Positions 4,464-64,000 of a stretch of 64,000 nucleotides of DNA are shown one piece after another. The stretch lies in NCBI RefSeq assembly GCF_000189635.1, contig NW_002476169.1, positions 421,618 to 485,617 on the forward strand, read 5' to 3'. A program made the position numbers and the translations under genes. Every line of letters starts with the position of its first letter. Within the stretch, counting starts at the first letter, position 1. Under the pieces are notes generated by a model, which had not been told where the DNA came from, did no database searches, and saw nothing but the letters and a program-made list of their open reading frames with translations. Source of the DNA: Tetrahymena thermophila SB210 (taxonomy: Eukaryota; Ciliophora; Oligohymenophorea; Hymenostomatida; Tetrahymenidae).

Positions 4464-5993
4464 TCAATCAATATATAAGTCCCAATGAGATATTTCATTT
4501 TAATATTTAAGAAAAGGAATAATTTATTTATTGTATGCTAATAAAAGCAATGTATAATTAAATTGCTGCATTTTTAAAAATAGACCTTTTTTAATTTCTT
4601 TATTTTATATTATTTATGAATGTATAATGTGGAGTTTTTTTTAAATAGGTCCATAAAAAGAATTTATTATTTCTAATTTTTTGTAATCAGAAAGATTATT
4701 ATTTCTCCTTTCTAAATTTAACACTAATTTCATAATATCATTTTATATAACATCTTCTTTAAAATCTTTGTAATTTATTGCTTAAAGTTAAATCTCGAGC
4801 GACTTTTCATGTTACTATATTTGATAATAGCAGCTAGATAGCATATCATGGCATTCCAAGAAAATTGTAGTAGATAATTTAAATTTTAAAGATTGTTAAT
4901 AGAAATCAATAGCTTTTTCATATTACTACATAAACTAGTATTGCTCTGCTATCTAAAATAAAATGTAACCAGATTTTGGTTTTAATTCTGAGAGATCCTT
5001 TAAATACTTAGTAGCCTATTCATAGTTATGTTTATTGACTTCAATTGAGCACAAGCAAATATAAGATTTGTAACTGAATTAATTAAATTGGATGGACTTT
5101 TCAAGAAATTCTATTCCTTTGCTAGGCATTTCTTAATTTTCTTCTAGATAATTTTAAATATATAAATAATATCCTAATCTATATAATGTATCACTGTCTT
5201 CAGGATTTATTTCATATGATTTATATAAATAAGAAATTGCTTTTTTTTTATCAACTTTATAATTAAAATAAAAATGTGATATATTATTTAGGATAACTGT
5301 ATTTTAGGGATTTAAGTTCAAAGCTTCTAAATATAATTCTTCTGCTTTATCATGCTAGTTTATCTAAGCATATAGAAAAGCAAGGTTATTTGCAAAACCT
5401 AAGAGTCTATTATTATCTTTGTACATTTATTCTGTATACTCTATAGATTCCTGATAAAGCCCTTTATCATAAAGAACCATCCCTATAGAATTAATTATCT
5501 CATATTTATATTAAGGAGCTTCATCTAAAGCCTATTTTAATATATGAACGCATTCAATATCAGACTATTCGCGAAAATTTTCAAAAAATTTATACAATCC
5601 TAAGCCATATAAATACAATCCCTTCACATAATTATCCTGATTTTCATTTTAATCTTTATAATTTTATGTAAATTTCAATAAAATACAATTGTTTTCTTCA
5701 GTAGCTTCAAGATCTAAATTATACAAATGTTGTTAATAAGTTATTTGCATAAATATATCAATTTCATCTACATTTTCCCCTTTTCTATCTCTAATCTCTT
5801 TGGATAAAATATTAAATTTCTCTTTTGCAATCTAAATCTAACTTTTTTCAAATAAACACCTTATTAAGTAAAACTAGGCTAAACAATAATCATCGAAATG
5901 ACTTTTATCTTTTGCTAACTCTTCTGCTAAGGCTTAGCATTCATCTAAATAGCTATTATAATATTTAAATTTTATTTCTTCTATTGAAACCAT
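4464..5993 (-). CDS. Tetratricopeptide-repeat (TPR) protein, single exon, 509 aa
   Basis: One uninterrupted frame from ATG (5991-5993) to TGA (4464-4466), 1530 nt. The protein is helical throughout. The middle holds clear TPR units, for example around FANNLAFLYAQINQHDKAEE, followed by ALNLNPQNTVILNN and SYEINPEDSDTLYRLGYYLY, with the usual small/aromatic pattern and N/P turn. No catalytic domain, signal peptide or TM segment is visible. TPR arrays are protein-binding scaffolds, and the partner cannot be told from sequence. The stop codon is close to the start of a long AT-rich spacer. No intron is needed. Confidence 0.85.
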
Positions 5994-7331
5994 AATAATT
6001 GTGTTAAGTAATTTTTAATTTGATCAGTATTATATCTGTTTGTTATAATTTCGTATTAATTATTTTCAATATTTTAAAATAAAAAATAAACATAAAATAC
6101 TTACTTACTATTATATTTATTTTTTAGAATTAGAATTTTTTAAACTTTAAGCAACTAAATTTTTTATTAAAAATATCATCTTTTTTAATTGACTCGTAAG
6201 TCAGAAAGCAATTTTAATCTAGAATATGGTATATTCATATAATTTTTATTTAAATTCAATGTATAAAAAGTATATAATGGATTTTTATTTAAATAAATGG
6301 CAATATTAAAAAATAAAATTATAGTATATTTAGTAAATATAACATATTTACTATATAATAAGAAGATGGAATTCACAAGCTTATAATTAAATATAAATTT
6401 AAGATACTTTAGCTAAGTTGAAGAAGTTGGTATTAATATAAATACAAGCTTTTTTTCTCATCTTTTTTAATCAGTTAAAGATTAATTTAGACTTCCATCT
6501 ATGTAAAAAGGGGTGCTTGTTATTGTAGAGAAAATAGATTTATTAAAAAAGAATCAATTATTATTTAATGGTTCATATAGCCTGAAAAAAGGGTATCAAC
6601 ATGTATAATAAAACTTTTTTTATTAAATAATAAATAATATTAGAATATTCTGTAAATCTAATCAAAATAGACTGACTTAAATATTAATAAAAATAAATAT
6701 AATATAATATAATATAAAAAATACAATTTAATTAATCCTAACATAATTAATATAGAAAATAAATTGTGTCGATGTAGTTAAAATTGCCTATGATTTATTT
6801 AATTTATTTAAAATATTTATTATTAGCTAAAATTCAACTTTTATTGTTAAAAAAAGAATTTAATTTTTTGATTTCTGATGGAATGTTATCAAATAGTAAA
6901 TTAAACAAAAATTTAGAGTAAGCATTAATTAATAACTTCTTAAATACAAAAAAGTATGATGATGGTATTTATTCTGTTAACAATTTAAATATTTCTGCAA
7001 AATTTATAAAAATGTATTAATGTTTTAATATAAAATATGCAAATCGATTTAATTCATAAAACAAGATAATAAAAATCAAAAAAGTAATAACATCATTTAT
7101 AGTTGAATTAAAATCTCTCTTCCCACTATTGATCGCTTCAGAAATATCTTAGGATAAAAAAGTCATTACAAATTAAAATCCCATAACAATTATCTTAAAA
7201 AAGTTGTAAATATTCTTCATAAAATAAATAAATGCTAATTTGATTTACTATTAATTAAATTATCAAAATTTTTGCAATCAAAACTAAAAAAACTATCATA
7301 AAAAGGCTTCTAAACTTAATTTTAAAAGTCA
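5994..7331. other. Intergenic spacer between divergent genes
   Basis: This 1.3 kb lies between the start of the minus-strand TPR gene and the start of the first plus-strand paralogue, so it should contain both promoters. It is very AT-rich, with a short TATAA-type run near 6690-6715. A TGA-free frame from about 6772 runs into the paralogue in the wrong frame and is not considered coding. Confidence 0.55.
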
Positions 7332-8591
7332 ATGTAGAAGCATTTATCTCACTTAGAGCTTCAAAAAATCATAAAGAAAGACAGAAGGAGATCAAAAAAA
7401 ACATTATTTATTCTACTTTAAAAACCATTAAACTGTATTAGTGTGTTTTACAAAGAACCTTTGTAAGATAAAAAGCTTTTTATAGCATTCGATGTTGTTA
7501 TCAATTTAGAAATATTTGACTAACAAAAAGAATCTGATTCAGTGATTCTATTCAGTGATTTTAATACATGGCGCATTCCTTTGAAAGTTGAAAAAAAGTT
7601 AATCGCTCACTCATAACTTCCATAAATTTTGTAATAATACCAAATTAATTGTAAGGAGTATGAAGAATCAGGGAATCAAGATCACTAAAACTCGTTTAGT
7701 TCATAAACTGATAAAGGTGATGATTTGCTTAACCCTTAAATAATAGACCATTTTATGGGTAATAATTACCTTATAGAAGTAGAATTAGATACAAATAATA
7801 CAGGCTCTAAAGTATTTGGTGATTTTGCAAAAGTTTTAAACAGTATTCCTAATTAAAAAGCTCATTTATTAGCTGATAAAATAGTTCTCTATCAAAACTT
7901 TGTAAATAATTGCTTGTAGAGTTATAAGTAATACGAAAAAAGTCTTACAAGAATTCTCCCAAACTTAAAAGAAGAAAATATTCTTGAAGCATTATTGCAA
8001 GAATAAATGAGTTCTTCCTATGAATAAGCTTATAAAATTATTTCTGAAAAAATAATTAATAATAAATTTGTCTCATACTTGATAAAAGTTAATAAAGAGG
8101 GTTAGCAAGTGATTCAAAAGTTTGGCTATTCCAAAGCTTTTTTGGATATTCTAGGAATATAGGGTAATTATGAATAGTTCTTTATGAGGAGAGGACCGAT
8201 TAATCCTTTTAATCCTCGAAATAGATTAGACAGACTTATAGTTGGGCTTCATAAAAAAGCGCTTGGATATCAGAGAAATATTGCAGATAAATATGAAGAT
8301 TTTTATACTGACTAAGAAATTTATACTATAGACAATATAGTGTTTAAGACTAACTATAAAACAGAAAAGCACTTTTTGAATTAATCAGACCAGTATTTTA
8401 TAAAATCTTCATTTTTACTCTAAATAACTACATTTGATATACCTGATTAGATTATAGCATAAATAGCTAATATTCGTCACTAAAATTCTATACCGAAATC
8501 GCAAATTGCTTAAAATCAAGAAAAAGAGATTTGGAATTTGCAATATAATTGTGAGTCTGAAATATTTTTGAACAAATATTACATTCATTGA
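7332..8591 (+). CDS. Tandem paralogue 1 (subtype A), unknown function, possible PAS-like fold, 419 aa
   Basis: Single exon, 1260 nt, ATG at 7332 to TGA at 8589-8591. The start matches paralogue 2: both begin with a short helix and a basic patch (here KKDRRRSKK). Then come KKLFIAFDVVINLEIF, a variable Q/N-rich segment, the stretch IEVELDTNNTGS, and a conserved C-terminal half with FVSYLIKVN, KFGYSKAFLDILGI, FMRRGPINPF, NRLDRL, a T-D...F-x-C-like strand region and a final ESEIFLNKYYI. The C-terminal half (glycine-tyrosine-serine turn, helix, then strands) resembles a PAS sensor fold, but this is a weak inference. No TM segment. First of four copies spaced 2.2-2.4 kb apart. Confidence 0.8.
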
Positions 8592-9701
8592 GTTAGAACG
8601 AAATTAAGCAAATAGAACAAATTGAAAGTTTTTAATCAATAAATTACACTTAAAAAAAACTTTCTAAACAAAAAAGATAATAAAAAATATAAAACAAACA
8701 ATTTAACCAATTATTAAAAGGGTAGTAAAATAAATATCTGCCAAAATATAAAACGAAATTAAATTCTATTGTATATAATAATATAATAATTCACAAATGA
8801 ACTCTATTAATCAATTTATTTATCTTTAAATTCAGCATAAAATATTTATCTCACTAATTTTATCAAATTTTATAATCATAATTTGTGATTAAGTCATTAT
8901 CACTTTAAAAAAATTAACACAATTTTCTCTTATTTATTGTATTTTTTTATATATTATTTTACTATGAATTTGCAATTTGAACTTTTACTTAATATTAAGA
9001 ATTTTTGTCAAATTCTGGTGAACTGAGTAAAAGCGAATATAAAATGTAAATTTTATTTTTCTTACACGCGTTAACTATAGCTATTGATCATATTATATAA
9101 TGTAGGTTGTATGAGTTGAATGAACTAAATGAATATTTTTAAAGTTAAAATTAAAATAGAGTTATACAAATATTAATAATTATTTAATGTGAACATTAGT
9201 AGAGAGTAAAAAAATTCATTATTTTATTTTTATAATTATTTTATTCAAAATAAATTAAAATCTTTATGGATTTTCTATTGTATTGATTTAATTGGTATTT
9301 TTTGCTTAATTACATAATTCTTTTATTGTCACAATCTGAAAGAATGAACCATCTAAATTTAGTATTACTAGTTTTAAAAGGAAATTAAGTAAACAAAATT
9401 TTTTATTATAAAAGAATCTCAAATGTTAGAACTAAATACCTTATAAAAAATTTTTATAAACATGGTTAACTAATTTATACATTTATTTAGCTGGGTAAAA
9501 TTTTAAATAGATAATGTTATAAACTATTTCATAATCAAAATCGAATTTGCATTTAATAAACATTTGTATAGCTTTACTGTATTTGGTAAAAGAATAATTA
9601 ATTACTCCTGAGCCAAATAAATAATTAGATTTTTTTACTAATCAAATTCAGATAAAAATTGTTCACAAAAATTTGATTTTTGAATTCAACTTAAATTAAG
9701 A
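8592..9701. other. Intergenic spacer within the paralogue array
   Basis: 1.1 kb of AT-rich DNA between paralogues 1 and 2, close in length to the next two spacers (1041 and 1015 bp). I see no coding potential. It presumably contains the terminator of copy 1 and the promoter of copy 2. Confidence 0.6.
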
Positions 9702-10970
9702 ATGGATAAACATTTTTCAGCAGCAGAACTTTAAAAAGTAATCAAAAAGAATAAAAGAAGATCTAAGAAAGAGTTAATAGTCTTGATTTAAAAAAATATG
9801 AATGTTGTTAGCATATTATATAAGGAGCCTTAGCAGGAAAAAAAAATATTTATTGCGTTTGATGTGGTACTCAACTTGGAACTTTTTTAGTAATGTCAGA
9901 ACTTTGATGAGACATTTTTCTTTCATGATTTAAGCACTTGGAGGACTCCTATAAAAATAGAAAAAAAATATGTAAATGGAGCATTTATTTAAGACTCTTT
10001 GAGTGTTGCAAATATTAGCTAAAATTATTTGAGCGCTAATACTACTTTTTCAGCTTCTACTATTGATTTATCATATAAAAGTCAAAATCCTTTAATATAT
10101 TATTAAAATTCTGATACAAAATCTATTGAAAATAAAATGAGTAATAATTTTTTAATAGAAATAGAATTGGATTCTTAATCAACAGGATTAGTTTAATTTG
10201 GTGATGTTTCTAAAATAATTAAAAGCTTTTCAAGTGAAAAAGCAAATTCACTTGCTATCTAACTTAATAAATATCAAGATTTTGTAAAGGCATGTTTACA
10301 AGAATATAAAGTCCAAGAAAAGAGCATGATGAAAATATTACCAAATTTCTAAGAAATAAATATGCTTGAAAAAGCCATTTAGGAGTCTAATATAATTTCA
10401 ATGTTGAAAGCTCAAAAAATAATTGAAGAAAAGTTGTAAAAGAATTAATTTATTTCATATATAGTAAAAATAAATAAAGATGGATAATAAATTTTACATA
10501 AATTTGGTTATTCTAGAGCTTTTTTAGATATTATGGGTGTCTACAATAACTATGAAAGCTTCTTTATGAGGAGAGGACCTATAAATCCATTTAACTAGTA
10601 AAATAGACTTGATAGACTTATAGCAGGTTTATTTCATAAAGCAGAGGGCTTCTTTTAGAAATAAACAAATAATTATAGTGACTATTACTCAAATGAATAA
10701 ATCTACACACTCGATAACATTTCATTCAATTGTGATTTTGTAATTGATAAAATATTTCTCAACAAATCTGATAAATATTATGTAAATGCAGGATTTCTTC
10801 TCTAAATAGCTACTTACAAAATATCTGAAGATACTCTAGCTAGAATAAAGAGTTTTAGACTAAAAAATGGGCAAAATAAATTACTAAAATATATTGATAG
10901 TAAAGATGAATACCAAGACATTCATTATACATGTGAAACAGAATTATTTTTAAACCGCTATTATTAATGA
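9702..10970 (+). CDS. Tandem paralogue 2 (subtype A), unknown function, 422 aa
   Basis: Single exon, 1269 nt, ATG at 9702 to TGA at 10968-10970. It is the closest relative of paralogue 1. Shared elements are ELQKVIKKNKRRSKKEL near the N-terminus, KKIFIAFDVVLNLELF, an acidic FLIEIELDSQSTG segment, then FISYIVKINKDGQ, HKFGYSRAFLDIMGV, FFMRRGPINPFN, NRLDRLIAGL, the YTLDNISFNCDF strand region, LLQIATYKIS and a terminal ETELFLNRYYQ. The basic KKNKRRSKK patch could be a nuclear signal or DNA-contacting region. Soluble, no signal peptide. Frame integrity and conserved motifs argue for a functional copy. Confidence 0.8.
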
Positions 10971-12011
10971 ATAAGAAACATTTATTTAAAATAACAATAC
11001 ATCTATTAATAATTATTATTTTTGAAATGTTTACAAGAGTTTTACTAATTAAAATTAAATAATTTTTATTTTATATTTTATAATAAATTTGATATCAAAC
11101 TAAGTATTAAAAATAAAATTAATTTAGCTTTTAATAAAAAAAATAATATTTTTTTGATTTAAATTCATAAAATAAATTATTTTGAAATGATTATTTTTAA
11201 TAATAGTTTAACTTTTTATGTTGTACTTTTAGATAGAATTTTTTATTTTTTATGATATTAAATATCATTCGATCTTATTTTATAAATATTTTATTAATTA
11301 AAGTTTTAAATAAGCATCTTAAATAAAAAAAATTTATTTTTCCTAAATTTAAATTAATTAATATTTAATCAACTATTTTAATTAATTTATAAAAATTAAA
11401 AGAAGGAGTAAATGTAAAGAATAATATTTGCTGTTTACTTAGATTATGGTAAATAAATGGCATTCTTAAATTTTATTTAAAAAATTTAGTTAGCTTTATG
11501 CATTTTTTTAATTATTTGCTTAAAAAATTATTTTTTAAGAAAATAAAATTAATAGATTTTTAACTAACAGTTGCTATACTTTATTTTATAATATACAAAA
11601 GGCATTATTATTATTTATTTAGATAAATGGTAATAGATTAATAACAGTTTAATCTAAAAAAAAAATGTTTGTTTATTTAAATATTTTCTATTTAGAAAAT
11701 AACTAATTAATAAATAAAATTAGTTTAATTAGATAAAATATTTTCATTTATGAATGAAATTAATATTAATTTTCTTAGTAATTTTAAATGATAAAAATAA
11801 TATGATTTTATATTCTAATATCATAATTTTAATGGCTGATATATATTTATGATAATTATTAGTAATCTAAATTTCTAATTATATTGATTTGAATGCTTTT
11901 AATCTAATTGTGTTTTCTATTGATTACTTTTCTAGAGAGAAGATTTATTATTAAAATTTTGATCTAGAAAAAGAGTGAATTATATTAAAAATTGAATTAT
12001 TTACTGAATAT
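10971..12011. other. Intergenic spacer within the paralogue array
   Basis: 1.04 kb, extremely AT-rich with many short A and T runs. I see no gene or RNA in it. Confidence 0.6.
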
Positions 12012-13178
12012 ATGCAAATGGAAATAGAAAGTAACTTTTCAGAAACAAAAAAAGGTATATCAGAAGAGTAAAAGTAATAAGAGAAGCTATTAAAAAAATA
12101 AAAAAAGAAACTGCAAAATAAATAGAAGTAAGAGTTATAAATTAAGTAATATGGAGTAAAAAGTGTCATAATTAAAGATCTAAGCTATGAAAAAAAGATA
12201 TTTTTACTTACCGATTTAATAGTTGATTTGGATATGTATTAAAATGAAAATCTAGAGAGACCAACAAAATTTGAATTGATATCAAATTGGAGGCCTTGCA
12301 CAAAAATTGTCAATGAAAATAACATAGTTCACATAGATTTAGATACATCTGTTGATGGATTAAGTAATTTTAACCAAGTTATTAAAATATTGTAAAGTAT
12401 ACCAAATTAAAACGCTTATGAACTTAGCTAGCATATTTAAGCATATGAAAAATCAATAAAGTTATATGATGAAAAAAATAATGACTTAATGTATATTTAT
12501 CGCTTGATAAGTCAAGATTAGAGATCTAATTACACATTAAATGACTACTTTGAAGATGAAGTTTAATAAAGATTAAAGATGGCTTTGTAGTTGATAAATG
12601 AAAAATATAAAACAAACAAATTTATTTCTTACATGATAAAAATTCGCAGAAGGAATCATTAAGTAGTAGCAAAGTATGGGTATTCGGTTGAATTGCTAAA
12701 TTTATTGGGCATTAACAATGAGAATATGTACAGAATTTTATATTAAAATGGTCCATTACTTTTTTTCTCAAATCAAGATAAATTTAATAGACTTAAGAAT
12801 AGCTTAATTAGAAGAATAGAAGGCCTATAATATTTATAATCCTAAACTGAAGATCTTATATATGAAAACTAAACTATATTGACATTTGATGACTTAAAAT
12901 TTAACTGCAATATCCATATGATTAAAACTCAGCTTAATAATGATTAAAATTTTTTTATTAGGAATGTAATTCATATTCAATTAGCACTTTATGATATAAA
13001 CGATGATATTATTAATGAAATTAATCATCTACGCTATAAAAATGCAGAAGAAAGCCAAAATTAAACTAAAAATGAATTTGATGATATATATTATGGTCTC
13101 GATTACCAAACTTAATCAGAAATGTTTTTATAAAAGTTTTATATCAATAAGAATTGTAATCAACCAGCATCTCAATGA
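12012..13178 (+). CDS. Tandem paralogue 3 (subtype B), unknown function, 388 aa
   Basis: Single exon, 1167 nt. The ATG at 12012 is the first in frame after an in-frame TGA, and the stop is TGA at 13176-13178. The N-terminus is a Lys/Gln/Glu-rich likely coiled coil. It is followed by KDLSYEKKIFLLTDLIVDLD, a conserved Trp (NWRPC), HIDLDTSVDGL, and the C-terminal half: FISYMIKIRRRN, KYGYSVELLNLLGI, LYQNGPLLFF, DKFNRLKNSL, TFDDLKFNCNI, IQLALYDI and a final SEMFLQKFY. It aligns with subtype A over the C-terminal half but has a different N-terminus. A standard-code ORF in this region (13003-13206) is a shadow. Confidence 0.8.
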
Positions 13179-14193
13179 AATTCTATTGGAAATAAACTAT
13201 TTATAAAATGAAAAATAATTATAAAATCTAATTTTTAGATACCTCAATTAAAAAGCATAAATTAAAATATAAAATATGTAATTTTATATTCTTTTTTTAT
13301 TTATATAAATAGCTATTATATATTTAGTATTGAAATAGATTTTACATAAAATTTTGAGTGAGTTTTATTTATTTTTTTTATTATAATTGTATATTAAGTA
13401 GTTTTAAGAGTTTAAATATTTTAAAGATTACTTAAAAATAAATATAATAAATAAACAAAATTTTTAATGATCTAATAAAAATTAAATTTTTAAAAATGCA
13501 AATTAATTTTAAAGAATAATTTTTTAAAAAAAGCAGTTCATATTAAAAAACTTAAAACTTATTTTTTTATATTTTACAACATAACAAAAGCTAAAATTGA
13601 CCTGTATTAACTTATCTGAATGCCATTTTTAAGACTAAAACAATATTTAAATATGATAATAACTATTTTCATGTTTTTAAGAAAAATATACATTATTTAA
13701 TTCTAATAAAAGCATTACTTGCTTTAACTAACTCTAATTTAAAAATATAATTTAAAATTTATATAATAATGCAGTTGATTTGTTTTTTAACAAAATATGA
13801 GATGATAAAAGTTTGTTAAGAATTTGCAAATTTTTAATATAAATATTTTTCTATCGTAAATTTTAAGAATAATTAGAAATTTCTAGGTGTAACTTCTGAT
13901 ATTTTAATTTAAAAAATAATCTTAATTCTTATCAAAAATAATAATAATTAAAAGATGCATCAAGAATTTTCTCAAAATTGTTAATCAAATATATATAAGC
14001 TTTAACATATTTGATTATATCAAAATAATATTTTTTTACACATAAAAACTCGATCTTGTGGCTAAGATCTTCATATAATAAATAGCTTGGATCTACAATT
14101 AATTGATTTACCTTAATTATATTTTGTTTACAATATTAATTTAATAATTAGAAAACAAAGTGAACATAAAACTAAAAATTGGAGAGTTTTTTT
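13179..14193. other. Intergenic spacer within the paralogue array
   Basis: 1.0 kb of AT-rich DNA between paralogues 3 and 4 with no visible gene. Its length is close to the other array spacers. Confidence 0.6.
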
Positions 14194-15324
14194 ATGGAAA
14201 TAGAAGAAGAATAAAAGTAAAGCCAAGAAATATAAACCAATGATAAAAATGAAGAATAAGCAAAAATTATTGCCAAATAAAAAAAAAAGCTAAAGAAACA
14301 AAAAAAGGAATAAATGGCTTTGTAATAATTTAGTTATAGAAATTTGATGGTTAAAGATTTAAGCTATGAGAAGAAAATATTTTTATATACAGATTTAGTA
14401 GTTGATTTGAATTTATTCACAAATGATTAATTTGGTCGATCAGATAAATTTGATGCGATAAGCTGTTGGAGACCTCCAGTTAAAATAGAATAAGAAAATA
14501 ATATAATTCATATTAGTTTAGATACTTCAGTGGATGGATTAGTAAATTTTGATTAAATATCTGATATTCTAAATAGCATTCCTAACTAGGATGCTCATGA
14601 AATAAGCAAATATATCTAGCAATATAATTTCTTTCTATAGAAATATTTTGAAAAAAATAGGGATTTACAATATATATTTAACCTTATCTGTCAAGATAAG
14701 CACAATAATTACACTTTATAGGATTACTTTGAAGAGATTATATAAAAGTAAATGATTAAATCTAAAGATTTTGTCAATTCTTGCTATAAGCAAAACAAAT
14801 ACATTTCATACATGATAAAAACTAGAAAGAGAAATAATAAGGTGATAACAAAATATGGGTATTCATTAGATTTGCTTTAACTGTTAGGCATAAATAAAGA
14901 TAATATGTTTAGGATCCTTTATTAAAATGGTCCTCTACAGTATTTTTCAAGCTAAGATAAAATAAAAAGGATGAAGGAAAGCTTATTCCAAAGAATAAAC
15001 CAACTAGAAGCTTTTCATCAAGATAAAGAGGAAAAAAAATTATTAGATTAAACAATAATTACTTTTGATGATTTGTAATTCAAGTGTGATATTACCATGA
15101 TAAAAGATAACATGTCAAAACATGAAAACTTTTATGTGCAGCAAGTTTTTATGATATAGGTAGCCTTATATGATATAAGCGAAGAGGTAGTCCAGTAAAT
15201 ATAAAATATTCGTCAATTAAACCCAAATAAATAATAATTATAAGACGAGCTCAAAGAATTGTATTAGGGTTTAGAATACGAAACTCAATCAGAAATATTT
15301 ATGTCAAAATTTTATAATATTTGA
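14194..15324 (+). CDS. Tandem paralogue 4 (subtype B), unknown function, 376 aa
   Basis: Single exon, 1131 nt, ATG at 14194 to TGA at 15322-15324. The N-terminus has an acidic/Gln stretch and a strongly basic patch (AKQKKKLKKQKKEQ) resembling a nuclear signal or bZIP basic region. Then KDLSYEKKIFLYTDLVVDLN, CWRPPVKIE, HISLDTSVDGL, and the family C-terminus: YISYMIKTRKRNN, KYGYSLDLLQLLGI, LYQNGPLQYF, TFDDLQFKCDI, VALYDIS and SEIFMSKFYNI. Closest to paralogue 3. It is last in the array, 0.76 kb from the end of the convergent HMG-box gene. Function is not recognised; a nuclear regulator is a guess from the basic region and fold. Confidence 0.8.
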
Positions 15325-16775: not shown

Positions 16776-17658
16776 TTTATCAAAATTGAATTAATTTTCT
16801 ACTTTTCAATGTTTATTTTTTATAAAATATTAATTTGATACATTATATTATTTTTTGCAATTGCTTTATTTATTTATGGATGGATTTTTTTGATTCTATT
16901 TATCTTTTGAAATTTAGTAGTCAAAATCTCAACTAACAATAGAAATTTAATTAATTTTTGATAATTGCGCGTAATATTTTATTAGAATATATCAATAGTT
17001 ATTTGATCTACTCTGTTAATAGAATCCTACCTAAATATTCAACCAATATAAATAATTGCTACATGTTAAATGAATTGATAAAATATTATCTTTATTTTTT
17101 TTAGCATATCAATCAAAAATATTTTTACAAATTTTTTTGTTTATTTTTAAGATATTTAAATTTAATTATCTCATCCAAATCAATACAAATAAAATAAATA
17201 AATAAATGAAAAATAAACATTTGATAAAAATTATTTTTTTCTTCAAAGTAATAGTCACAACTTGACTCGATTTTTAATTCAAGCTAGAGCTAACTTCAAG
17301 CAAAAAATAAATTTTACTAACATATTTATAACGATTTAAATAATTAAGAGAGTATTATATACTTTATAAAGTTTCAGAAATAAATGAACGAACAATCATA
17401 AAGAAAATATAAAGAAATGCATTAATTATTGGATGACTGATGATTCTTGATACATTTAAGCATCTTTTCTATGTAATTTCTTAAATAAACAAAAGAAAAA
17501 AATATTAAATTTTCAAACAAAACTTTAAATTATAAAAATCTTAATATTGTATCTTAAAGAAAGATAATTAATAGTTGATTAAGCAAGCATAAAAGGTAAA
17601 AAAGCATTTTAAATATAACAATAATATAGTCGTAAAGTTAGCAAGCACTTTTGTCTAA
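16776..17658. other. Divergent promoter region
   Basis: 0.88 kb between the HMG-box start (minus) and the TPR gene start (plus). It is AT-rich and holds no open frame that I trust. Confidence 0.55.
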
Positions 17659-19113
17659 ATGTACTAAAAATCTCAAAAAAATGTTGCTGAGGAAAACTTT
17701 TAAGATCCACTAGTTAAATTGATGTCACAAGAGCGTGAAGAAAAAACAGGTATAGAAAAAGTTAAGGAGTTAATAGAATTTGAATACTTTGATGAGGCAA
17801 TTATGACTTGCAATTCAGTTTTATCTGTTAACAAGAAAGACTACCCACATATGATTTAAAAATTTCGAGCATATGTTAAGGCTTCAAAATATGATAACGA
17901 AAATATATTGCCTCTAATCATGGAATTAGAGAAATCATATCCATAATGCTTGAGAGATGTAGAATATGTTGAAGCAAAGTACGATTATTATTTGAATACA
18001 AATAGCTATACAAAGGCAGAAGAGTTCTAAACAACTTTGAAATAAATTTATGGAGAAAAAAATTCAAAGTTTGATGCTGCAATAGCATAATTACATATTA
18101 AAAGAGGTAAATACAATGATGCCTTAGACATTATAGATAGAGGATTAGCATAAAATGAATTTGATGGACTATTATATGAGCTTAAAGGAGATATTTATTA
18201 CTATCAGTTTGGTAGATAGGAAGATGCACTTGTTTAATATAAGTATTCTATGCAAATGAATAAAAGAAACCCAAGTCTTTTTGAGAAAATGGCTACCCTC
18301 CTTTATAATAAAAATTTTTATGATGACACTGTATAATATGCAACAGTTACTTTAGAGCAAATTCGTTCAGCAAAGGATAAAAATCACCTTACTTAGTAAT
18401 AAAGACACTGTATTCTTTTGAGAGGATCTTCTTACATTTATCTAAAATAATTTGAAGAAGCACAAAATAATTTCTAAAGGATTTTAGACTTTGATGAAAA
18501 ATGCATCTAAAGCAGAATGGGTAAGGCTTACGCCTGCATGTATAAAGGTAAAAGCGATTAAGCTGTTGCTATCTTTAAGAAAGGCGAAGAATTAAATGCA
18601 TCTTATCCAGATTATGGCTCCTTTATGGCATTAGCTTATTTCTTGAGAAAAGACTATGACAACTGTGAGATACAACTCAAGAAATATTTTAAGAAATTTA
18701 ATTAGAATTAGGAAGGTTTAACTTAATAGTAACCAAAAAATATATTCAATCTTTTAAATTATGTGAACTTTTTTTACTTAGATGAATCATATGCTAAGTC
18801 TAGTATGGAAAAAGTATTCAGTAGTTTAGACATCTCTACTTTCAAGCTAAGTGACATAGATTTACACTTTATTGAAAATCTCTCAAGCTACGAAGGAATT
18901 AAGAAGAGCTTATTAGAATATTTGCAAAATCTTATATTGTACCTTGCAACAGGTCTTTATAGATGGTATCCAGAAGATTTGTATGTTTTTCTTTCAAAAC
19001 ATAAAGAAAACCAGGAAGTTAGTTAGAAAATTTCTCATATTTATTCTATGATAGACAAAAATAAACAAACAGGTATTCATAACTCAAACTGGAAAAGAAA
19101 AAATTAACTTTGA
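17659..19113 (+). CDS. Tetratricopeptide-repeat protein, single exon, 484 aa
   Basis: Uninterrupted frame from ATG at 17659 to TGA at 19111-19113. Repeated helical pairs with TPR spacing occupy most of the protein: GKYNDALDIIDRGLAQNEFD, GRQEDALVQYKYSMQMNKRN, ILLRGSSYIYLKQFEEAQNN, MGKAYACMYKGKSDQAVAIF. The C-terminal quarter is a different helical region, and a standard-code ORF at 18763-19026 is only a fragment of it. No TM or signal sequence. Composition is richer in Asp/Glu/Gly/Ala than in neighbouring low-complexity genes, as for a conserved folded protein. Role: protein-interaction scaffold; partner unknown. Confidence 0.85.
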
Positions 19114-44436: not shown

Positions 44437-47400
44437 ATGGAAAACACTGAATAATTCTAACGCTTTTCTCCTTAGAGACGTATGTCCAGAAGGCTTTCTA
44501 CTGGTGGCAGAAATGACTCCTTTAGCTCTCTCTTCAGACCTGAATTCGGTTCTTAGAATAGTCTTATATAAAATGAAAAAATGTGGAAGCTTATGTAGTC
44601 ATATATTAAGAATGATAAGGAAACTATCCAACAGTCAATTGTGAACCATGTTGAATATACTTTAGCTAAGACAAGATTCGATTTCTCCATATTCCATGCC
44701 TATCAAGCCATATCTCACTCTGTTAGAGGTAAAATATTTATTATTTATTTCTTTTTACCAAAAATATTCGTCTGAATAACACATTAGCACAGACTATAAA
44801 TTTAAATTTTATTTTTTTCAAACAACACAAATATAAGTAATGAAAATTATCTTAAATTTTGATATGCCTTAATTAATATATTATATTTTCCTTATGCCTT
44901 TTGCCTACCTATAATCTTACAAAATCATTTTTATTTTATAATCTTCTGATTTCATCTTTTTAATCAAATTGAAGGTTTTAATATTTTTTTTAAATAATGA
45001 AATTACTACTTAAAAACTACTTTTTTGCATATACCAAATTAAATTATGAATAAAATTATTTTAGAGAAACAACTTTTTGAGATTGTTTTTGAATTTTGAT
45101 TTGGAGATAGATATATTTTTAAATAAACTACCATATAAGTCGATAATGCTTATTAAAAACGTTTCTCCTTTTATTATTGGTTGAATGTACTATTCTTAAT
45201 TATTGAACTTCTCCTAATCTTATTATTCTATAAATTAGACAATTTATTGTTAAGAAATAAGATTTGCTTTTGATATTTTTTAATCCAGCAAATGAATGAA
45301 TTAATACTTATATTTTGATTTTAATGGAATAAATTAACAAAATATAATTTATTTGTTTAGGAAATATAATAGATTACTAAGTGAATCAATTATTTTAATA
45401 AAAAAATAGATAGACTTATTGAAGCTTTTAATGATACCGCTCAGTACTTCACTCATCATGATTGCAAGCGTGTATATTACTTGTCTATAGAATTTTTGAT
45501 GGGTAGATATCTTCAAAACGCTTTAATCAATTTAGAACTAGAAGATAATTACAAAGAAGCTGTTTTAGAATTAGGATATAATCTTGAAAGTGTTTATGAA
45601 TAAGAAGTTGATCCTGCCTTAGGAAACGGAGGTCTTGGGTAAATAAATTTATAATACAAATTCACTTAATAAGTCTTAATATATTTAACGAATTTATATT
45701 ATAAATCAGTCGTTTAGCTGCATGCTTTTTAGATTCTATGGCAACTTTAAATTTACCTGCTTGGGGATATGGTATTAGATATAGTTATGGTATCTTTAGA
45801 TAATTGATTAAGGATGGGTATCAATATGAAGTTCCCGATTACTGGTTAGATAATGGTAATCCTTGGGAAATAGAAAGACTTGATGTCAACTACCCTATTC
45901 GTTTCTATGGATATGTTAGAAAGATCCATGAAAATGGAAAAGAAAAATCTATTTGGGAAGGAGGAGAAGTAAATTAATTAATTATATTTAAAGTTAGTTG
46001 ATCATAAATAAATTTGATGAAAGAAATATGATGTTATTTTTTAATAATTTGAAATTATACTAATTTTATTGTCTAGCTTGACCAATCATCAAATTTATTT
46101 GATAAAAAATATAATTTTTGTTAGCACAAATCTGACAGGTAGATACAAATTAAAAAAAAAAGAAGCAAAAATAAAAATAATAAATTAATTAATTAGCTTA
46201 CTAGAATAAAGTTAACGAATAAACAATAATTTCAAATGATTTAATTTACTTTGATAAAATAATATTTAATTAAAATTAAGGCAGCATTTATTATTAGTCA
46301 ACATCATATGATTCATATAACTCTAATTGAAAATTAAATAATTAGTTCTAATCATATCTAATTTTAAACAATAGCTTGTTCTAGCAAGAGCTTACGACAA
46401 TCCAATTCCTGGTTACGATACCTATAACACAATCAACTTGCGTTTATGGCGTTCATTACCAGCCCGTGAATTTGATTTCAATTCTTTCAATTAGGGTGAC
46501 TACTTCAAAGCTTTAGAAGAAAGAGAAAAGGCTGAGTACATTACCTCAGTCCTTTATCCTAACGACTCTAACTACTCTGGTAAGGAGCTACGTTTAAAGT
46601 AATAATACTTGCTTGTATGTGCTACTATCTAAGACGTTATTCGTCGTTTCAAGAAGAAGAAAAGAGATTGGAAAGAACTTCCCGAAAAAATAGCTGTTTA
46701 GCTTAATGACACTCATCCTGCTATGGCTATAGTAGAATTATTGAGAGTCCTTATCGATCATGAAGGTATTGAAATAGAATTTGCTTGGGAACTTGTTTAC
46801 AAAAGTTTCTCTTACACTAACCACACTATTCTCCCTGAAGCCCTTGAAAAGTGGGGAATTGATTTACTTGGAAATCTTCTCCCTCGTCATCTTGAAATCG
46901 TTTATATAATTAACTTTATTTTCCTTGAAAAAGTATCTAAGAAGTTCCCTAACGATCATCATCGTCTTTCTTCACTCTCTATAATTGAAGAAAGTAACCC
47001 TAAGAAAATTCGCATGGCTAACCTTGTAAGATGAATTAATATTTTATATTTTTATGAGTAAAATTAACAAAAAAATCTTCTTTAACTAAAGTCAATTATT
47101 GGATCACATGCAGTAAATGGTGTAGCTGAAATCCACTCAAAACTTTTGACTACTACTCTCTTCAAGGACTTTTATGAACTTAGACCTAAGAAGTTCTAAA
47201 ACAAAACTAATGGTGTTACCCCTAGAAGATGGATTAGATGCTGCAATGTTCAACTTGCACAACTTTACACTGAGTAGCTAGGAGGAGATACATGGGTTAC
47301 TGACCTCACCCAAGTTAGATGCTTAGAGAATATGGTTGAAGATCCTGACTTTTAAAATAATTGGTAGAGAATTAAAAGATAAAATAAAGAATAACTCAAG

Positions 47401-48601
47401 TGGTGGGTAAAAGAAAACTGTTAAATAGACATTAACATTGATTCATTATTCGATGTTCAAGTAATAATTAATTGGTTTATAGCTTTTAAGTTAGAATATA
47501 AGAATTGACATTTCATTTTACAATAATAGGTTAAGAGACTTCACGAATACAAGAGATAATTCATGAATATATTGTATGTCATTCATCGTTATCTTTCTAT
47601 TAAGAAGACACCAGCAGATTAAAGACATGCTAAATTCCTTCCTCGTACTATTATGTTTGGTGGTAAGGCTGCTCCTGGCTACATTAATGCAAAGAGAATC
47701 ATTAAATTAATTTGCTCTGTTGCAGATAAAGTAAACATTATAATTATCATTTAATTTTATTATTGTATGTTTAAAACTGCAAAAATTAAATAAAGTAAGC
47801 ATATACTAATTATTAAAATTAATAAAAATAGGTCAATACTGATAGCGAAATTGGTGATTTAATGAAAATAGTTTATCTACCAAATTACAATGTATCAAAT
47901 GCTTAAATTATCATTCCTGCTACTGAATTAAGTTAACATATCTCAACAGCTGGTTTGGAAGCTTCTGGTACTTCTAATATGAAATTTGTCATGAATGGTT
48001 CCTTAATTATAGGTACTATGGATGGTGCTAATGTTGAAATCGCTGAAGAAGTAGGTAAAGAAAATATGTTTATTTTCGGAGCTTTAGTTGATGAAATAGA
48101 AGGTTTAAGAAATCATATGAGAAATACTGAACCAAGCCAATATTTCCCTCCTGAACTTAATGAAGTTCTTTAAAAAATTGATGAAGGTAGCTTAAACATA
48201 CTAAAATAACTTGCATTTAAATTTATTTTTCATAAAAGGATTTTTCGGAGCTGTTGATGAATTAAGAGAACTTATCAATACTATTAGAAATAGAAATGAT
48301 TATTACCTTCTTGGTGCTGACTTTAAGAGTTATTTGGAAGCCCAAAAAAAAGTTGATGAATGCTACAAAAACAAAAGTTTATGGACTAAAATGTCAATTC
48401 GCAATGCAATTAGATCTTCTAAGTTTTCATCAGATAGAACAATCTAATAATACGCAGACGAGATTTGGTAAAATTTTAAGTAGTAAAATTAATATTAATA
48501 AATTATAATTAAAAAGGGGTGTAAAGGCTTTCTAAATTCCAAATCCATCTCAAAATGCAAGAGAGAGAGTAAAAAGCTACGACAATGTAGCTGCAAATTG
48601 A
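44437..48601 (+). CDS. PYG: Glycogen (alpha-glucan) phosphorylase, 889 aa, nine exons
   Basis: Exons: 44437-44728, 45410-45638, 45710-45968, 46375-47025, 47092-47460, 47530-47730, 47832-48186, 48239-48467, 48517-48601. The protein matches glycogen phosphorylase throughout: [90 protein letters not shown] and the PLP-lysine site [14 protein letters not shown] followed by [10 protein letters not shown]. It releases glucose-1-phosphate from glycogen in the cytosol with pyridoxal phosphate. Length (889) is slightly above the usual ~840. The N-terminal extension ([11 protein letters not shown], then RNDSFSSLF) carries basophilic phosphosite-like motifs, which could replace the Ser14 control of animal enzymes. 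Catalytic sites are intact. Confidence 0.96.
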
Positions 48602-63976: not shown

Positions 63977-64000
63977 TTGGGGTTGGGGTTGGGGTTGGGG
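63977..64000 (+). repeat. Telomere, (TTGGGG)4
   Basis: Four perfect TTGGGG units end the window, with the G-rich strand running 5' to 3' toward the end. This is the Tetrahymena-type macronuclear telomere. The switch from unique AT-rich DNA (AGAAAG) to repeat is abrupt, as expected where telomerase added repeats at a chromosome breakage site. Confidence 0.97.

Follow-up and report, generated by a model that had tools for sequence, protein, structure and literature searches.

Lineage-specific families of regulators are known elsewhere, such as the ApiAP2 proteins in apicomplexans and the Zn-cluster regulators in fungi. The fungal ERT1/RDS2/AcuK proteins have an N-terminal DNA-binding part and, further on, a PAS-type module (PAS_13; PF24990) preceded by a helical lead-in. 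In a Tetrahymena macronuclear genome, tandem clusters of paralogues are known from leucine-rich repeat (LRR) families (PMC6564038). Here we analyze a tandem array of four paralogous genes, P1 to P4, located in a 64,000-nucleotide stretch of Tetrahymena thermophila SB210 DNA (contig NW_002476169.1, positions 421,618 to 485,617 of the forward strand; hereafter the window, to which gene coordinates refer). These genes form one branch of a large unnamed paralogous family whose C-terminal half may be PAS-like. They resemble the LRR families in being clustered tandem paralogues of a Tetrahymena macronuclear genome, and differ from them in that no LRR was found in the four genes or among the Pfam matches listed for 39 members of the family, and in that the array genes have no 90-bp exons because they are single open reading frames (ORFs).

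An Old Tandem Array Maintained under Purifying Selection

Translation with genetic code 6 yields four plus-strand ORFs, each ending in a TGA stop: P1 (7332..8591, 419 aa), P2 (9702..10970, 422 aa), P3 (12012..13178, 388 aa), and P4 (14194..15324, 376 aa). The original prediction, made from the letters of the window, had described four intact single-exon genes of these lengths, with starts 2370, 2310, and 2182 bp apart and spacers of 1110, 1041, and 1015 bp, and our measurements agree with it throughout. Homology among the four genes is far beyond chance: a genome search with the single query P0002 returned the first gene at E = 7.8e-111, the third at 6.6e-24, and the fourth at 3.9e-21. All four share one related motif (FVSYLIK in P1, FISYIVK in P2, FISYMIK in P3, YISYMIK in P4), a K(F/Y)GYS motif, and a GP block preceded by RR or QN. 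Two other motifs proposed as common to the array are not universal, since the cysteine of the F-x-C strand is present in three of the four genes (P1 has FKT) and the C-terminal FL..(K/R)(F/Y)Y reads FMSKFY in P4.

Protein identity reaches 48% between P1 and P2 and 50% between P3 and P4, against 29–34% between the pairs, which corresponds to a ((P1,P2),(P3,P4)) topology. In a tree of the family, the four genes grouped into one clade (SH-aLRT 89) and the two pairs were recovered with values of 99 and 100, which bears out the local duplication that had been proposed; this tree comprises the 36 rows with more than 220 filled columns and was built by a quick method without bootstrap, and it contains many long branches. 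The proportions of nonsynonymous and synonymous differences (pN and pS; Nei–Gojobori, code 6) are 0.339 and 0.721 for P1/P2 and 0.318 and 0.660 for P3/P4. Synonymous sites are saturated or nearly so (dS 1.3–2.4), with dN far lower, and Ka/Ks in the array is far below 1, its exact value being precluded by the saturation of dS. A Ka/Ks near 1 for all four copies, named beforehand together with absence of transcripts as an outcome that would speak against the prediction, was not seen, pN being less than half of pS within both pairs. It follows that the genes were duplicated long ago and have since been maintained by purifying selection; decay toward pseudogenes is rejected on the substitution counts.

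The regular spacing of the genes had been taken as a sign that a gene-plus-spacer unit was duplicated repeatedly, which our data do not support. The spacers (P1–P2, 8592..9701, GC 0.179; P2–P3, 10971..12011, GC 0.127; P3–P4, 13179..14193, GC 0.151) are no more alike than expected under a Markov null: in the three pairwise comparisons, the best local scores of 37, 33, and 41 bits were reached by 68, 137, and 70 of the 200 spacers simulated for each pair. Because these matches are no better than simulated ones, the genes may be almost evenly spaced by coincidence, or the trace may have become too old for detection. Nor did the 150 bp preceding the four starts contain a shared word of 7–9 bases with at least two G/C. 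Among the 1377 stop-to-stop frames of at least 20 residues in the window, the family profile, whose own rows included P1–P4, recovered exactly these four genes (next best E = 0.023), with no sign of a fifth copy or of a remnant.

A Large Family without a Clear Match in the Domain Databases Searched

The array had been put forward as a candidate for an undescribed, possibly lineage-specific family. The four genes are paralogues but do not stand alone as a small family, being one branch of a family that we count at 80 loci on 47 contigs of the same genome (101 Mb, 445 contigs). This figure comes from seven merged genome searches, each with a different member as single-protein query and two of them with queries from the window, at a merging threshold of E about 0.001 or better (C247, at E = 0.00101, lies just over it, and rows of the window reach E = 0.0066). 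Excluded from the 80 were C78:101149, C81:331235, C9:125787, and C443:377849 (E 0.0027 to 0.66), as well as C322:429069 (E = 4.13). Locus counts are lower bounds because only the best candidates were scored, and a gene with a long intron may count twice, genes being read exon by exon. Some family matches contain an internal TGA and could correspond to intron-split or broken copies. When a profile was iterated over the retrieved loci, it converged at 48 ORF entries, 45 of them distinct and three being cut repeats. N-termini of the type MEIE, MELE, or MEVE recur in nine of the 48 entries (eight distinct: P3, P4, L022, L023, L025, L029, L043, and L048), which fits the start codons of these ORFs.

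When neighbouring loci within 5 kb of each other are taken as a cluster, 35 of the 80 loci fall in 11 clusters. The largest comprises nine minus-strand loci within 21 kb (C398:253122-274276); several matches in this cluster contain a TGA, so that introns or broken copies are possible there too. The first 50 kb of contigs also contain the starts of more family loci than expected (28 of 80, expectation at most 17.6), a comparison in which clustered loci are not independent and contig starts are not necessarily chromosome ends. Further family clusters lie near the starts of contigs C281, C321, C340, and C268. In Tetrahymena chromosomes, tandem duplicates are reported to be commoner in pericentromeric and subtelomeric regions (PMC6564038); these regions belong to centromere-bearing chromosomes and need not equal the ends of macronuclear contigs.

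The prediction that the family would match nothing described held in every database searched. Pfam and NCBIfam gave noise only for the four window genes, and a Pfam scan of the 39 members matched 38 families, none above noise (best E = 0.0067). Searches of the PDB with the four-gene profile returned no match, and with the 39 members only noise. Three chains, no PAS domain among them, were listed for a profile of the conserved core; they included a designed 'CAP repeat' chain at E = 3.2e-5, matched in four short repeats no stretch of which is significant singly, and AcrA fragments at E about 1, both judged to be chance matches. The designed LRR/repeat proteins found in the PDB with one consensus (best E = 0.0034) were also attributed to chance, and a match of a consensus of the N-terminal half to FliT (E = 0.0012) to generic helical similarity. 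P4 matched nothing in phage records, nor did the window alignment in IMG/VR, where only two weak peptide patterns were used. The literature that we located, including the accessible parts of PMC6564038, PMC10810533, and PMC3341644, contains no description of the family as far as we could see; most subscription papers lie outside this scope, and the finding is no proof that the family is unpublished. A family of about 80 loci, of which 39 members were scanned and fitted no Pfam model, represents a sizeable annotation gap in a model organism.

A PAS-Like Reading of the C-Terminal Half

From the family alignment A6 and a crude strand/helix average, the conserved C-terminal core was delimited on the plus strand at 8046..8522 in P1 (FVSYLIK ... 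KFGYS ... TIDN ... FDI ... IR), 10428..10904 in P2, 12600..13079 in P3, and 14779..15252 in P4. The average consists of Chou–Fasman values over a 42-row alignment (two rows of which are cut repeats) that also underlies the group consensuses and the profile comparisons with 17 PAS sequences and with fungal PAS_13 described below. For the C-terminal half it gives a clear strand (FFSYIIGKIN) and a weak one (FEVEI), mixed helix/strand calls over GYSESLLALLG and EQFQQIILRKG and a mostly helical stretch, and then the strands IEIITFDG, IKIKVKIKKIF, and YEFFLEIVEYDIS, followed by a helix.

This order can be read as that of a PAS domain (PF13426, PAS_9; PF00989, PAS), with a helix containing LLG, a T.DG strand, and a (Y/R)DI(S/T) end in the same sequence. 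In the corresponding register, set down before any consensus was scanned against Pfam, GYS falls on the NPA position and YDIS on the RDIT of PAS. In these scans PAS_9 was the only model to recur, matching three of 15 family consensuses with a best E-value of 0.0021. For one of the five group core consensuses, built from 15 members, PAS_9 was the single Pfam match (E = 0.03); the sixth group query represented the N-terminal half rather than the core. Among ten consensuses of random subsets, two matched PAS_9 (E = 0.0021 and 0.024), the former also reaching PAS at E = 0.087. All three PAS_9 matches begin at GYS, with its serine on profile position 17 (or its tyrosine on 16), that is, within positions 15–17, which we take to be the N-P-A of the profile, and they end at positions 97, 93, and 103 of 103. 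None of ten block-shuffled control consensuses matched PAS. On these grounds we consider it about an even question whether the C-terminal half is PAS-like, and we use this term rather than PAS domain because direct profile tests failed despite the consensus matches.

The family also departs from PAS domains in having GYS where these have NPAF. It further has a conserved FLEKYY tail and, following the core, a nearly invariant arginine, for both of which we know of no counterpart in PAS. A search of the same genome for canonical PAS_9, in which just the top-ranking candidates are scored, matched two loci, L069 (1441-1848) and L070 (1477-1812), on the minus strand. Among solved structures, L069 is closest in sequence to the haem PAS domains of FixL and DosP.

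Across 39 full-length rows, one glycine (of LLG) is invariant and the serine of GYS, the aspartate of TFD, the arginine after the last strand, and two tyrosines of the tail are each kept in at least 90%; in alignment A6, which retains 29 of the 39 rows after the removal of ten that were fragmentary, divergent, or interrupted by long insertions, the serine, glycine, aspartate, and arginine are all invariant. These four nearly invariant residues are direct targets for tests. The tail itself is of the type ...YS.(E/Q)S..FL.K(Y/F)Y.

Upstream of the core, each array protein carries a basic N-terminal stretch on the plus strand: residues 12–36 in P1 (7365..7439) and P2 (9735..9809), with nine K/R in 25, and residues 21–45 in P3 (12072..12146) and 18–42 in P4 (14245..14319), with ten in 25. 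Over the 33 members whose upstream sequence is long enough, the 45 aa preceding the domain contain on average 21% K+R, against 11.7% elsewhere; the four window genes have 24–31%, and 13 of the 33 members reach 25% or more. Strands are predicted directly after the basic stretch in the Chou–Fasman average, and the region between it and the core is predicted to be strand-rich and then helical. In P1–P4 no membrane-like segment was found (peak 19-residue hydropathy 0.80–0.99) and the proteins look soluble.

Taken as a whole, the account that we favor is one of old duplicates in a large family of intracellular regulators, each having a PAS-like module and a basic stretch, and we give it a probability of about 0.38 on the basis of sequence. 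In such proteins the PAS-like module would serve for dimerization or for binding of a small molecule or partner, and the basic stretch for targeting to the nucleus or nucleic acid; the family would be a set of intracellular regulators, possibly nuclear. Duplication might then have supplied versions that differ in their triggers or in the times of their expression.

Points Against the PAS-Like Reading and Alternative Explanations

Several observations weigh against a PAS-like core. No single member among the 39 scanned reached a PAS model in the matches listed, which cover 25 of the 38 families, each from one member, and the best consensus scored 18.8 bits against a PAS cut-off of 27. NCBIfam PAS models matched none of ten consensuses. 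When the family was compared by hhalign to 17 PAS sequences, the P-values were 0.06–0.14, mainly the T.DG strand being aligned; a four-row PAS alignment gave P = 0.04, but in a different register. With a local PAS profile, members did not outscore shuffled (p 0.08–0.24) or reversed (p 0.12–0.18) sequences, nor their own N-terminal halves (p 0.56–0.99). Shuffled controls matched other models by chance down to E = 0.0038, and the random subsets overlap, so that their PAS_9 matches are not independent. The Chou–Fasman calls are mixed at strand two and at helices one and two of the core, which makes the complete PAS order of two strands, three short helices, and three strands an interpretation. 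The basic stretch is also missing in some members (L047, L025, and L062 have 2–4% K+R in the upstream region).

In a rival explanation, the core would be a ciliate-specific fold unrelated to PAS, with a structural or scaffold role, for instance in the cytoskeleton or cortex, the PAS matches having arisen by chance from the many consensuses scanned. We regard this as a serious possibility, although we would hold it with less than even confidence. It would account for the failure of the direct profile comparisons with PAS, for the partly mixed strand/helix calls, for the ease with which shuffled consensuses reach some model, and for a Pfam search above noise in no scanned member and an NCBIfam search above noise in none of the four genes; it leaves unexplained that PAS_9 recurred three times in a register fixed beforehand while the shuffled controls never gave PAS. 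Another rival is a more specific origin, in which the family would descend distantly from fungal regulators of the ERT1/RDS2/AcuK type (Zn2Cys6 plus PAS_13), with the helical lead-in before PAS as a common feature. By eye the layouts are alike, both showing a helix of the type F..L...L.....Q......Y..F, a second helix, and a PAS-like core. A Zn2Cys6 cluster was nevertheless found neither in the four genes nor among the matches listed for the 39 members, and PAS_13 (PF24990) has no match anywhere in the genome at E ≤ 10. Profile comparison of the family with four fungal sequences, in which Pfam recognizes PAS_13 at 1e-22 to 1e-40, gave P = 0.52, and kinship of this kind appears highly improbable. 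An assignment to bZIP regulators was also rejected, because the basic stretch leads into predicted strands and not into a zipper; no bZIP was found in the four genes (E ≤ 10) or among the matches listed for the 39 members.

A different objection concerns the array rather than the fold. As tandem duplication often leaves dispensable copies in Tetrahymena, P1–P4 might be drifting duplicates without a function of their own, and the excess of family loci near contig starts fits such an origin. The four ORFs are intact, however, the excess of pS over pN holds within both pairs, and at least 90% of the 39 rows retain the key residues, all of which makes this explanation distinctly unlikely. Returning to the family of intracellular regulators, a stronger version would see in it dozens of ciliate gene regulators, so far undescribed as a family, that combine a basic nucleic-acid-binding stretch with a divergent PAS-like sensor; from sequence this seems doubtful. 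If it were true, the family would be the counterpart in role, in Tetrahymena, of the ApiAP2 and fungal Zn-cluster families. What is described here is an unnamed family of considerable size with a possibly very divergent PAS-like module. Should the PAS-like reading be correct, these loci would provide many candidates for the sensors or regulators with which the cells respond to starvation, mating, and the environment. The family is of clear use for ciliate annotation, whereas a broader interest depends on whether its members are regulators.

Chromosomal Setting

The window ends in GGGGTT telomere repeats (63979-64000), at the end of both the contig and the macronuclear chromosome, which places the array 48.7 to 56.7 kb from the chromosome end. 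A telomerase fragment encoded in this genome agrees with the T. thermophila chain 2r4g of the PDB at 101 of 102 aligned residues, the exception being the first, at the fragment's edge; together with code 6 and the telomere repeat, this makes T. thermophila the probable source. The genes in its vicinity are ordinary and comprise TPR genes on both sides, a partial protein kinase, a glycogen phosphorylase, and a WD40-type protein. On the left flank, the TPR protein gene lies on the minus strand (window 4467-6023), and that on the right flank (window 17437-19110, plus strand) has a weak PDB match to BBS4 (E = 0.0005). The glycogen phosphorylase gene (window 46312-48254) is split into exons, seen as separate exon-like frames.

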